Shown: one piece after another, positions 26,413 to 51,235 of the stretch
Layout: every line of letters starts with the position of its first letter
Numbering within the stretch: the first letter of the stretch is position 1
NCBI RefSeq assembly: GCF_003967195.1
Contig: NZ_AP018725.1
Coordinates: 682,001-746,000 of the forward strand
Reading direction: 5' to 3'
Length of the DNA stretch: 64,000 nucleotides
Source: Sulfuriflexus mobilis
GTDB lineage: Bacteria > Pseudomonadota > Gammaproteobacteria > AKS1
The notes under the pieces: model-generated
The model's input: only the letters and a program-made list of their open reading frames with translations
Told to the model about the DNA's origin: nothing
Databases searched by the model: none
Made by a program: the position numbers and the translations under genes

Positions 26413-27006
26413 CTACTGGCAGGCCTGGCGATATTGCCCGTCCAGTTGCCGGACAGCGGACTGAAGCTGTTCCCGGCTACCACTATTGTCGATGACATCG
26501 TCAGCACGGGCGCGTCGTTCTTCGCGGCTGGCCTGGGCCGCGAGTATGCGTTCGGCGAGGGCCTCGTCGACCTGGTCACGCTGTTGCAGGCGCTGCCGTT
26601 GCAGCGCCTCCGGGCAGTCGACCACGAGTACCCGGTCGAGTATGGGCCAGGCCCCCGATTCTGCAAGCAGGGGAATGACCACGATGCAGTAGCAGGCGTC
26701 GAGTGTGGTGAGTCGTTGTTCAATGGTCTGGCGGATCAGCGGGTGCAGGATGGCCTCCAGGTCATGGCGGGCCTGTGCATCATCGAAAATGATCTCGCGC
26801 AGGGCGGCACGATCGAGTTCACCGTTTTCCAGCAGGATGCTGTGACCAAAACGTTGACAGACCTTGGCGAGGGCGGGCATGCCGGGCTCGACGAGTTCAC
26901 GCGCGATCAGGTCGGCATCGATCACGGGTGCACCCAGCGAGGCAAACTCTGCGGCGACGGCAGACTTGCCGCTGGCGATCCCCCCTGTCAGGCCGATGAC
27001 GTGCAT
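26413..27006 (-). CDS. coaE: Dephospho-CoA kinase CoaE
   Basis: Last step of coenzyme A synthesis (phosphorylation of the 3'-OH of dephospho-CoA). The N-terminal P loop GLTGGIASGKS is at residues 5-15, followed by PVIDADLIARELVEPG and later the HPLIRQ and VVDCPE motifs. At 197 aa it has normal length. It lies in the pilD-coaE-zapD-yacG context. The 288 bases upstream of it hold inverted repeats rather than genes. Confidence 0.95.
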   Translation of the reverse strand: MHVIGLTGGIASGKSAVAAEFASLGAPVIDADLIARELVEPGMPALAKVCQRFGHSILLENGELDRAALREIIFDDAQARHDLEAILHPLIRQTIEQRLTTLDACYCIVVIPLLAESGAWPILDRVLVVDCPEALQRQRLQQRDQVDEALAERILAAQASREERRARADDVIDNSGSREQLQSAVRQLDGQYRQACQ

Positions 27007-27027: not shown

Positions 27028-27113
27028 CGCAACGCAAAGGCGCGAAGTCGCAAAGGTCGCGGAGATAAATTAACTAAAAAACCTTTGCATCCTCAGCGCC
27101 TCAGCGTTGGACC
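27028..27113. repeat. Octamer-built inverted repeat, copy 1
   Basis: The left arm (about 27029-27063) reads as degenerate octamers of the type nnCGCAAA/nnCGCGAA. The right arm (about 27081-27110) is its imperfect reverse complement (ACCTTTGC...GCGCCTCAGCGTTGG). The arms are separated by about 17 AT-rich bases. Closely related copies occur at 40933-41132 and 51093-51192, also between genes. Confidence 0.75.
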
Positions 27114-27147
27114 TGGAATCTTTCATAAAATTTTATTGGCCAGGAAT

Positions 27148-27221
27148 GACAGGATTAACGCGATGGGGTTCCTGCCATAGCCTGAATGGCGTTTTATCTT
27201 GTCAGGCCCGTAAATCCTGTC
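27148..27221. repeat. Short inverted repeat GACAGGATT / AATCCTGTC
   Basis: GACAGGATT at 27148-27156 is exactly complementary to AATCCTGTC at 27213-27221, in the coaE-pilD gap right beside the octamer palindrome. The 56 bases between the arms include the pair CAGGAA/TTCCTG. It may be a second dispersed repeat or part of the same intergenic element. No coding frame is visible in the gap. Confidence 0.5.
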
Positions 27222-27294
27222 TATTGATATGTCGTAGGCTGCGCGTTGCGCACCTTTAAGTGTTTCTGAAAAAGGTTTCTAAAAAAGAAAAAGA

Positions 27295-28170
27295 TCAGAG
27301 GCCCGAGTAACGCAGGTAGGCATCGGTGAGGTCATGTCCCCAGAGCAGGGCGATCCAGCCGGCGGCGGCCAGGTAGGGGCCAAAGGGGATGGGGATATTG
27401 CGGTCGCGGCCACGAAACAGGATCAGGCTGATGCCAACTGCGGCACCGACCGCCGAGGAGAGCAGGATTATGACGGGTAACATCTGCCAGCCCATCCAGG
27501 CACCGAACAGGGCCAGCAGTTTGAAGTCACCATAGCCCATACCCTCCTTGCCGGTGAGGAGGCGGAACAGGTGATAGATAAACCACAGTGATAAATAACC
27601 GGCGGCGGCGCCGATCAGGCTGGCATGGCTGTCTACAAATAAGGGCACCAGGCTCAACAACAGGCCCAGCCAGAGAAAGGGCAAGGTGATCGAGTCGGGC
27701 AAGAGCTGGTGATCGATGTCGATAAAGCTCAGAGCGATCAAGGCCCAGGTCAAAAGCATCGCAGCACCGGCCTGCCAGCTGAAACCAAAATGCCAGGCCA
27801 CCGTGGCGGTAAGGATGGCGGTGAATACTTCAATAATCGGGTAGCGGGGAGATATCCTTATGCCACAGCCGGAACACTTGCCCCGCAGGAACAGGTAACT
27901 AATGACCGGGATGTTCTCGAGTGCCGTGATCCTGTGACCACACTTCGGGCAGCCGGAGCGAGGCTTAACAAGGTCGAAGGGTTTATCTTCGGATGCCTGT
28001 TTGTTCTCAACTTCAAGCAGTTCACTACATTGCTGCTGCCAGTCCCTCTGCATCATGATTGGCAGGCGCAGGATGACGACGTTGAGGAAACTGCCCAGCA
28101 ACAGGCCCAATATGAAACAGGCCGTTATAAAAACGGCCTGTTGTTCCGAGAGGAGGGTAATGATTTGCAT
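27295..28170 (-). CDS. pilD: Prepilin peptidase / N-methyltransferase PilD
   Basis: Integral membrane aspartic protease that cleaves and N-methylates type IV prepilins such as PilA in this locus. The cytoplasmic loop has two CxxC pairs (CPKCGHR and CSGCGIR), typical of bifunctional enzymes. The catalytic aspartates lie in FIDIDHQLLPD and GYGDFKLLA. About eight hydrophobic segments and 291 aa are normal. It is the third gene of the pilB-pilC-pilD run, six bases after pilC. Confidence 0.96.
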   Translation of the reverse strand: MQIITLLSEQQAVFITACFILGLLLGSFLNVVILRLPIMMQRDWQQQCSELLEVENKQASEDKPFDLVKPRSGCPKCGHRITALENIPVISYLFLRGKCSGCGIRISPRYPIIEVFTAILTATVAWHFGFSWQAGAAMLLTWALIALSFIDIDHQLLPDSITLPFLWLGLLLSLVPLFVDSHASLIGAAAGYLSLWFIYHLFRLLTGKEGMGYGDFKLLALFGAWMGWQMLPVIILLSSAVGAAVGISLILFRGRDRNIPIPFGPYLAAAGWIALLWGHDLTDAYLRYSGL

Positions 28171-40932: not shown

Positions 40933-41132
40933 AAACACAAAGCTCGCAAAGACGCAGAGTTCGCGAAGAAAGGCTAGAAGTAGTTCGTAGGTCTCGTAGG
41001 TCGGATTAGCGCGAATGCGCGTAATCCGACGCCCATATCAGTCATGAGCACTAAGCCACTCTATCAAGAGTAATATGATTTCTTACCCGTTATCTTTGCG
41101 CACTTTGCGTCTTTGCGGCCTCTGCGTTACCA
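40933..41132. repeat. Octamer-built inverted repeat, copy 2, with REP-like hairpin inside
   Basis: The left arm (40935-40970) runs through octamers of the form nnCGCAAA/nnCGCAGA. The right arm (about 41092-41130) is its imperfect reverse complement (TCTTTGCGC...CTCTGCGTTACC). The arms are about 120 bases apart and enclose a separate palindrome at 41000-41030. The whole 274-base gap between glnB and bamD shows no gene. Confidence 0.75.
41000..41030. repeat. REP-like palindrome (GTCGGATTA ... TAATCCGAC)
   Basis: GTCGGATTA (41000-41008) is exactly complementary to TAATCCGAC (41022-41030). Four further GC pairs follow after a one-base bulge, with an AATG loop. Palindromes beginning TAGGTCGGATTA are common dispersed elements between genes in many Proteobacteria. 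It could act as a bidirectional terminator for the convergent glnB and bamD. Confidence 0.7.
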
Positions 41133-48474: not shown

Positions 48475-51078
48475 ATGCGGATGGATAAATTTACCAGTAA
48501 GTTCCAGGTTGCCCTTGCCGATGCGCAAAGCCTTGCCGTCGGCCGTGACCACCAGTTTATCGACCCCTTGCACCTGATGACGGCCCTGCTTGATCAAGAG
48601 GGTGGCTCGGTCCGCCATCTGCTCATGCAGGCAGATGTGAATGTGAACCTGTTGCGGTCACATCTCGGCGAGGCACTCGACAAATTACCGCAGGTACAGG
48701 GTGCCGAGGGTGACCTGCACATCTCCAATGACCTTGGTCGCCTGCTTAACGTCTGTGACAAGTTGGCCCAGCAACGCAAGGATCAATACATCTCCAGTGA
48801 GCTGTTTATTCTCGCCGCACTCGACGACAAGGGTCCGCTGGGTGAACTGTTACGCAAGGCCGGTGCCAGCAAGTCGGCACTCGAGAAGGGCATTGATAAC
48901 ATGCGTGGTGGACAACAGATAGATGACCCGAATGCAGAAGAGCAGCGTCAGGCACTGGAGAAATACACCATAGATGTCACCGAGCGTGCTGAACAGGGCA
49001 AGCTGGACCCGGTCATTGGTCGTGATGATGAGATCCGCCGTACTATCCAGGTGCTGCAACGCCGCACCAAGAATAATCCCGTGCTCATCGGTGAACCCGG
49101 TGTCGGCAAGACCGCCATCGTTGAAGGTCTCGCCCAGCGTATCGTCAACGGTGAGGTGCCGGAAGGCATCAAGGGCAAGCGCCTGCTATCGCTCGACATG
49201 GGCGCGCTGATCGCCGGTGCCAAGTTCCGTGGCGAATTTGAGGAACGTCTCAAGGCCGTGCTCAATGACCTGTCCAAACAGGAAGGTCAGGTCATCCTGT
49301 TTATTGATGAGCTGCATACCATGGTCGGTGCCGGTAAGGCCGAGGGTGCCATGGATGCCGGTAACATGCTCAAACCCGCGTTGGCACGTGGTGAACTGCA
49401 CTGCGTCGGCGCGACGACACTGGATGAATTCCGTCAGTACATTGAAAAGGATGCTGCACTCGAACGACGTTTCCAGAAGGTGCTGGTCGATGAGCCGAGT
49501 GTCGAGGACACCATCGCCATCCTGCGTGGGCTGAAAGAAAGATACGAGGTCCATCACGGTGTCGATATCACCGACCCGGCGATTGTCGCCGCAGCGACAC
49601 TCTCGCACCGTTACATTACCGACCGTAACCTGCCGGACAAGGCCATTGACCTCGTCGATGAAGCCGCTAGCCGTATCCGTATGGAGATCGACTCCAAGCC
49701 CGAGACGATGGATAAACTCGAACGCCGTCTGATCCAGCTCAAAATTGAACGCGAGGCCATGAATAAGGAAACCGATGCCGCTTCCAAGCAGCGCCTGTCG
49801 GTACTGGAGACCGAGATCACAGAGCTGGAACGCGAATATGCAGACCTCGAGGAGATCTGGAAGTCGGAAAAGGCCGCCCTGCAGGGCACACAGCACATTA
49901 AGGAAGAACTCGAACGTGCGCGCATTGAGATGGAAACTGCGCAGCGCGCCAATGACCTGGCACGCATGTCCGAATTGCAGTACGGGCGTATTCCTGAGTT
50001 GGAAAAACAACTGGATATGGCCAGTCAGGCCGAGATGCAGGACACCAAGTTGTTGCGTAACAAGGTCAGCGATGAGGAGATCGCCGAGATCGTCGCTGCC
50101 TGGACGGGGATCCCGGTCACCAAGATGCTTGAGGGTGAACGTGACAAGCTGCTACGTATGGAAGATGAAATCGGTGCCCGTGTCGTCGGTCAGGCCGAGG
50201 CCGTGTCGGCCGTGTCGAATGCCATTCGTCGTTCTCGGGCCGGTCTTTCGGACCCGAACCGGCCAAATGGTTCCTTCCTGTTCCTGGGCCCGACCGGTGT
50301 CGGCAAGACCGAACTGACCAAGGCCCTGGCCGAATTCCTGTTTGATACCGAGGATGCGATGGTCCGCATCGATATGTCTGAGTTCATGGAAAAACATTCG
50401 GTGGCGCGCCTCATTGGCGCCCCACCAGGCTATGTCGGTTACGAAGAGGGTGGTTACCTGACCGAGGCCGTGCGCCGCAAGCCTTACTCCGTGATCCTGC
50501 TCGACGAGGTCGAAAAGGCCCATGCCGATGTCTTCAATGTACTGTTGCAGGTGCTTGACGACGGACGTCTCACCGATGGCCAGGGGCGTACGGTGGACTT
50601 CCGTAACACGGTGATCGTTATGACCTCGAACCTGGGTAGCCAGATGATCCAGGAGATGGCCGGTGCCGATGATTATGACGCCATGAAACAGGCCGTGATG
50701 GAGGTCGTGGGTCAGCACTTCCGTCCCGAGTTCATCAATCGCGTCGATGAATCGGTTGTCTTCCACCCGCTCGGCAAGGAGCAGATCCATGCGATTGCCG
50801 ATATCCAGATCGACTACCTGCGTCAGCGTCTGCAGGAGCGCGATATGGCCATTGAACTCAGTGATGCCGCACTGGATCGTATTGCCGAGGCTGGTTTCGA
50901 CCCGGTCTATGGGGCACGTCCACTGAAGCGGGCCATTCAGCAGCAATTAGAGAACCCGCTTGCCCAGGAGATCCTGGCCGGTAACTTTGGCCCGGGTGAC
51001 CTGATCAAGGTCGACGTTGAAGACGGCATGATCAGTTTCTCCAGGCATAAAAACGAGCAGGCCATCAGCGCGGCTTAA
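48475..51078 (+). CDS. clpB: Chaperone disaggregase ClpB
   Basis: Hexameric AAA+ disaggregase working with DnaK, 867 aa. An N-terminal Clp_N domain, first Walker A (GEPGVGKTA), the long coiled-coil middle domain (about 405-525), second Walker A (GPTGVGKTE) and a C-terminal small domain are present in order. ATG 48475 is used; ATG 48481 (MDKFTSKFQ) is also plausible. Expression under sigma-32 is predicted from the promoter directly upstream. An octamer-type inverted repeat follows the stop. Confidence 0.97.
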
Positions 51079-51092
51079 GGTTGTTATAAAAA

Positions 51093-51192
51093 CCCAACGC
51101 AGAGACGCAAGTCCGCAGAGACAATCAAAAAGATAGACGGCTATATTCATCATGTCTTTGCGTCCGCTGCGTCTTCGCGCCTCTGCGTTGGG
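51093..51192. repeat. Octamer-built inverted repeat, copy 3
   Basis: The left arm (51093-51122) is CCCAACGCAGAGACGC followed by further nnCGCAGA octamers. The right arm (51154-51192) is its close reverse complement, ending in CTCTGCGTTGGG. The outer ten bases pair perfectly. About 31 AT-rich bases form the centre. It fills the gap between clpB and the thioredoxin-like gene and may also act as a transcription barrier. Confidence 0.8.
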
Positions 51193-51235
51193 CCTTTAAT
51201 TCATTAATCCCTTTTTTTTCCTCTATACTGCTGGC

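Follow-up and report, generated by a model that had tools for sequence, protein, structure and literature searches.

The three palindromes in the window, meaning the whole 64-kb stretch of Sulfuriflexus mobilis DNA that was analyzed, are probably (at a likelihood of roughly 0.6) non-autonomous copies of a small mobile-element family, with GxxExxY, the nuclease of the gene-bearing members, as the putative mobiliser. Each arm of the palindromic element repeats an iteron of roughly 7 bp, separated by 1–3-bp linkers (CGCARAG spaced 9-8-9 in S. mobilis), and gene-bearing elements hold one small gene, GxxExxY, between the arms. The evidence comprises the arms and their copy number, the pairing of gene and arms across phyla, the match between arm types, presence and absence at a single orthologous site, and the fold predicted for the protein with its conserved D/E/K residues. 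Both partners are common, GxxExxY as a protein family whose function is unknown and octamer-like palindromes as repeats that lack a name; a link between the two opens both to testing, and the pairing suggests what spreads a repeat that is common in environmental bacteria.

An earlier note on this DNA had described three intergenic inverted repeats with arms of tandem degenerate octamers, and all three were found near the positions it gave (Table 1). The tandem arrangement of the arm units held up, and the eight-base period is better described as a degenerate 7-mer, CGCARAG, plus a 1–2-nt linker. The inter-arm spacers do differ, measuring about 18, 125, and 26 bp in copies 1, 2, and 3 (about 17, 120, and 31 in the note). 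Two end subtypes were distinguished, TTAA-CGC in copy 2 and GCCCAA-CGC or similar in copies 3 and 1. The folding of copies 1 and 3 was stronger than in all 200 of 200 shuffles (z = -4.0 and -5.5, respectively), and an Rfam search of the window gave no match. Copy 1 lies between coaE and a type IV leader peptidase gene, copy 2 between a P-II gene and a YfiO/BamD-like gene, and copy 3 follows clpB. Two further repeats were seen nearby: the GTAG-tagged palindrome in the spacer of copy 2, similar to one that adjoins another octamer arm of S. mobilis (L126), and, past copy 1, an imperfect inverted repeat that looks like the ACAGGAT-type arms of the GxxExxY gene at locus L041.

Table 1 Positions of the repeats and neighbouring genes in the window
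Feature	Position	Strand	Remarks
coaE	26413-27006	-	neighbour of copy 1
Copy 1	27028-27113	.	8-8-9 subtype; arms 27030-27043 / 27096-27109
Imperfect inverted repeat	27137-27232		just past copy 1; ACAGGATTAACG / CGTAAATCCTGT
Type IV leader peptidase gene	27295-28170	-	neighbour of copy 1
Copy 2, inverted-repeat arms	40934-40969 / 41093-41128		36 nt, 81% complementary
Copy 2, left arm	40936-40968	+	four units spaced 9-8-9: CACAAAGCTCGCAAAGACGCAGAGTTCGCGAAG
Copy 2, spacer	40969-41093	.	125 bp; holds GTAG-tagged REP-like palindrome from 40996
GTAG-tagged REP-like palindrome	40996-41036		within the spacer of copy 2
Copy 2, right arm	41094-41126	-	four units spaced 9-8-9
clpB	48475-51078	+	upstream of copy 3
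Copy 3	51087-51198	.	GCCCAACGC ends; 8-8-9-like spacing
Copy 3, inverted-repeat arms	51087-51118 / 51167-51198		32 nt, 78% complementary

Further copies are spread over the S. mobilis genome (3.11 Mb, one contig), which holds roughly 35 octamer palindromes. The exact 15-mer CGCARAGNCGCARAG matched 23 + 22 times genome-wide (45 matches; backward control 0 + 0), and the four-unit arm pattern at ≤ 2 mismatches matched 18 + 18 times (control 0 + 0), with 9-8-9 as the dominant four-unit spacing (34 of 46 arms). A loose scan of the window alone, at three mismatches, did not exceed chance (23 hits vs. 23.0 expected), so the significance of the repeats rests on the exact matches, the inverted arrangement and the genome-wide count. 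Folding z-scores ranged from -4 to -14 in the 22 two-armed elements measured, and none of the elements at 21 loci checked lay inside a clear gene (at L017 a mechanical open frame on the opposite strand overlaps). Spacers were 13–239 bp long, had a GC content of 29% (vs. 57% for the window) and gave no matches when compared with each other, i.e., they are mutually unrelated. Target-site duplications, raised in the earlier note, showed no excess over shuffled pairings in 20 S. mobilis elements. Across the S. mobilis elements overall, the two arms did not agree with each other (R positions p = 0.55, linkers p = 0.26), whereas agreement at R positions exists in other genomes (p = 0.006). The outermost unit was often CGCAGAG in one arm and CGCAAAG in the other (agreement 0.28), so that the two ends of the element may be distinguishable. 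Six octamer elements (L018, L126, L130, L132, L133, L134), of both end subtypes, carry the same extra repeat of ~55 bp (CGATGTTCAGGATGAAC..GAGCGACC), which always has the same polarity and sits in the linker beside the outermost unit of a single arm. It has the look of a second, small repeat for which the octamer arm serves as target.

The octamer 15-mer had no matches in a same-genus species. The orthologous junction of copy 1 was much shorter in G115, of the same genus, and that of copy 2 was ~170–190 bp shorter in G115 and G370, in a distant comparison at about 70% identity. No GxxExxY gene was detectable in the S. mobilis genome and no remnant of one was found in the window or at the S. 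mobilis copies read; the window copies are therefore classed as gene-less relatives by their arm architecture only.

Genes of the GxxExxY family (PF13366/TIGR04256; labelled PDDEXK_3 in Pfam) were present in 71 of 370 genomes of the class, flanked on either side by iteron arrays in opposite orientation. An inverted repeat across the gene was recovered by a shuffle test at 26 of 30 class loci, mostly with a best arm lag of 9 or 8, and inverted arms surrounded 59 of 79 loci of named genomes vs. 3 of 68 control windows; the remaining 4 class genes and 20 named-genome genes had no significant arm pair. Arm-flanked genes occur in Bacteroidetes, Cyanobacteria, Chloroflexi, Planctomycetes, Acidobacteria, Verrucomicrobia, several proteobacterial classes and archaea, which bears out the remark in the earlier note that similar sequences lie between genes of environmental bacteria. 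From genome to genome the gene is constant and the arm sequence type varies, and in G109 a decayed GxxExxY is still flanked by octamer arms. Neither the pairing of GxxExxY with palindromes nor the octamer strings were found in the literature searched, in which three papers name GxxExxY or PF13366, casually in the case of PMC8934634. In seven distinct genomes (L033, L045, L046, L111, L193, L196, L201; an eighth match duplicates one of them) the gene stands directly upstream of trpG, a site that is either recurrent or long-kept.

Octamer repeats were patchily distributed among the 370 genomes. PF13366 was found in 19 of 29 genomes with at least 10 octamers vs. 47 of 341 others (p = 3e-9), an association that persisted after stratification for PF05635 (OR 8.7) and was moderate within families (p = 0.016), all genomes being from one class and phylogenetically non-independent. 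The full four-unit arm occurred at least four times in 11 genomes, nine of them with GxxExxY (p = 5e-6). Arm types matched as well, since dispersed CGC repeats were more common where the sampled GxxExxY gene has CGC-type arms than where it has other arm types (p = 8e-4).

Presence and absence can be compared at one intergenic site in Thioalkalivibrio: seven species have GxxExxY with its arms there, and in sister species the neighbouring genes adjoin closely (from stop to start, 585 bp in G197 vs. 40 bp including short flanks in G386). The seven filled genomes hold 18–156 pairs of CACRGAG units, compared with ≤ 9 in the other 23 (p = 2e-5), and the lowest arm count among the seven is that of G401, where GxxExxY is truncated. 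Altogether, 9 of 30 Thioalkalivibrio genomes carry the gene, and the two genes outside the shared site have a different arm type and lie in genomes without CACRGAG pairs. Dispersed copies in this genus (L261–L265) were seen to be nested, with outer CACGAAG arms, inner CACAGAG arms and inverted linkers of GGTCAAGGGCG type.

By prediction, the protein itself is compact, resembles PD-(D/E)XK nucleases and has a fold of the class to which Cas4 and lambda exonuclease belong. Five residues (D67, E77, K79, H88, and Q91) are invariant in 47 sequences, and D67, E77 and K79 form the D...ExK motif of putative catalytic residues of the PD-(D/E)XK type. The modelled fold (pLDDT 96) has Cas4 SSO0001 and lambda exonuclease as its nearest solved structures, with modest scores (E = 0.001–0.02); a weak sequence similarity to Cas4 and the Pfam label PDDEXK_3 are in line with these matches, and a PDB search with the sequence gave no match.

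Taken together, a course of events can be proposed in which GxxExxY would recognise the iterons, the DNA probably being folded as a hairpin or cruciform, and would cut at the arms, and in which cutting would move or copy the arm-bounded DNA, including gene-less arm pairs in trans, leaving many gene-less palindromes beside one or few gene copies. As the gene is absent from S. mobilis, its copies would most likely be relics of, or have been spread by, an enzyme since lost. Mobilisation by GxxExxY is something we infer, given that S. mobilis and G342 are gene-less, that no target duplication was found, that the comparisons are distant and that the genomes are non-independent. The earlier note had considered a mobile non-coding element, which agrees with the dispersed copies, their absence from a sister species, the presence and absence of a gene-bearing relative and the existence of a partner gene family; its other suggestion, a protein-binding array, may form part of the mechanism.

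GxxExxY could instead be a passenger or accessory gene in hairpins spread by a RAYT or a DDE transposase, the pairing being real; we consider this unlikely, albeit the most serious of the alternatives. S. mobilis is rich in arms without the gene, as is G342, with 85 four-unit arms and no GxxExxY. In the latter (L275, L290, L302), the octamer hairpins are embedded in longer related elements that end in ACCTGTCTCAAAAT and possibly represent a conventional MITE; the three copies examined have terminal inverted repeats in common, so there are other routes by which arms can spread. RAYT genes, the link suggested in the earlier note, occur in 266 of 370 genomes and in 28 of the 29 octamer-rich ones (p = 9e-4), but this class-level co-occurrence had no counterpart within families (p = 0.53), and in G071, the sole genome compared by position, the nearest listed octamer was ~20 kb from a RAYT gene. 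S. mobilis, moreover, has a distinct GTAG-type REP, a different repeat, and RAYT was rejected as the octamer partner, the consistent neighbour being GxxExxY. The constancy of the gene across phyla, under variable arm types, also speaks against a passenger.

Homing-type elements, in which the nuclease cuts an empty site and the whole block is copied in, with gene-less palindromes as by-products or decay, appear improbable as the full account. PD-(D/E)XK homing enzymes exist, and the recurrence of the position before trpG as well as the one conserved site in seven Thioalkalivibrio species would fit, but homing alone does not account for gene-less arm pairs that share the gene's arm type and occur by the tens at unrelated sites. 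Least credible, and in our opinion very improbable, is that the palindromes are immobile host features such as terminators, mRNA stabilisers or a nucleoid-protein array: they are intergenic and form strong hairpins, copy 3 starting only 9 bp past clpB, yet they are patchy, missing from a same-genus species, present or absent together with the gene, separated by spacers of up to 239 bp, and their arms flank one gene family.

Mobilisation by GxxExxY, if true, would resemble the RAYT/REPIN system but use an enzyme of another fold, and a RAYT/REPIN-like system of this kind, with iteron arms, is also the best reading of the data. RAYT (TnpA-REP)/REPIN systems (PMC3116915, PMC3733652, PMC8266576) likewise combine dispersed intergenic palindromes with one or few nuclease genes flanked by the same palindromes, and spread in trans is proposed for both; here, few GxxExxY copies stand beside many dispersed gene-less palindromes of matching type. 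Unlike RAYT, an HUH tyrosine transposase, GxxExxY is PD-(D/E)XK-like, the arms are iteron arrays that lack a GTAG (or CGTC) tag and end in TTAACGC or GCCCAACGC, and they flank PF13366 genes, whereas RAYT does not track the arms within families; the GTAG palindrome of copy 2 is a repeat separate from the octamer arms. MITEs, too, are small inverted-repeat elements that are non-autonomous and have gene-bearing relatives; ours differ in having unrelated spacers of variable length, the arms alone being conserved, and no target duplication was found in them. The TAACTGA heptamers of Beggiatoaceae, Cyanobacteria and Bacteroidetes, proposed as translational regulators, are similarly short tandem intergenic units with a patchy distribution for which transfer was suggested, but they are direct heptamers, with one indirect repeat reported (PMC4679880).

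A parallel in layout is provided by PF05635 (four-helix-bundle) genes, associated with 23S rRNA intervening sequences such as the Coxiella IVS (PMC4990558), where a small gene is likewise enclosed by short tandem units in inverted arrays. The two protein families are unrelated and the arm periods differ: inverted heptamer arrays flank PF05635 genes, with a best lag of 7 at 26 of 30 loci, vs. mostly 9 or 8 for GxxExxY, each protein family thus having its own period. PF05635 was thereby ruled out as the octamer partner, its genes bearing period-7 arms. The parallel suggests a general design of a small gene, iteron arms and dispersed gene-less copies. We tentatively propose, at somewhat less than even odds, a class of mobile or homing elements found throughout the prokaryotes that has GxxExxY proteins as its enzymes and unites PD-(D/E)XK nucleases with iteron palindromes. 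Such a class would account for a large part of the octamer-like intergenic repeats that lack a name in environmental bacteria, with PF05635 and its heptamer arms as a parallel system. Among the PF05635 genes with inverted heptamer flanks (L061–L090), five were located between rpsI and, downstream, what looks like a tRNA gene.
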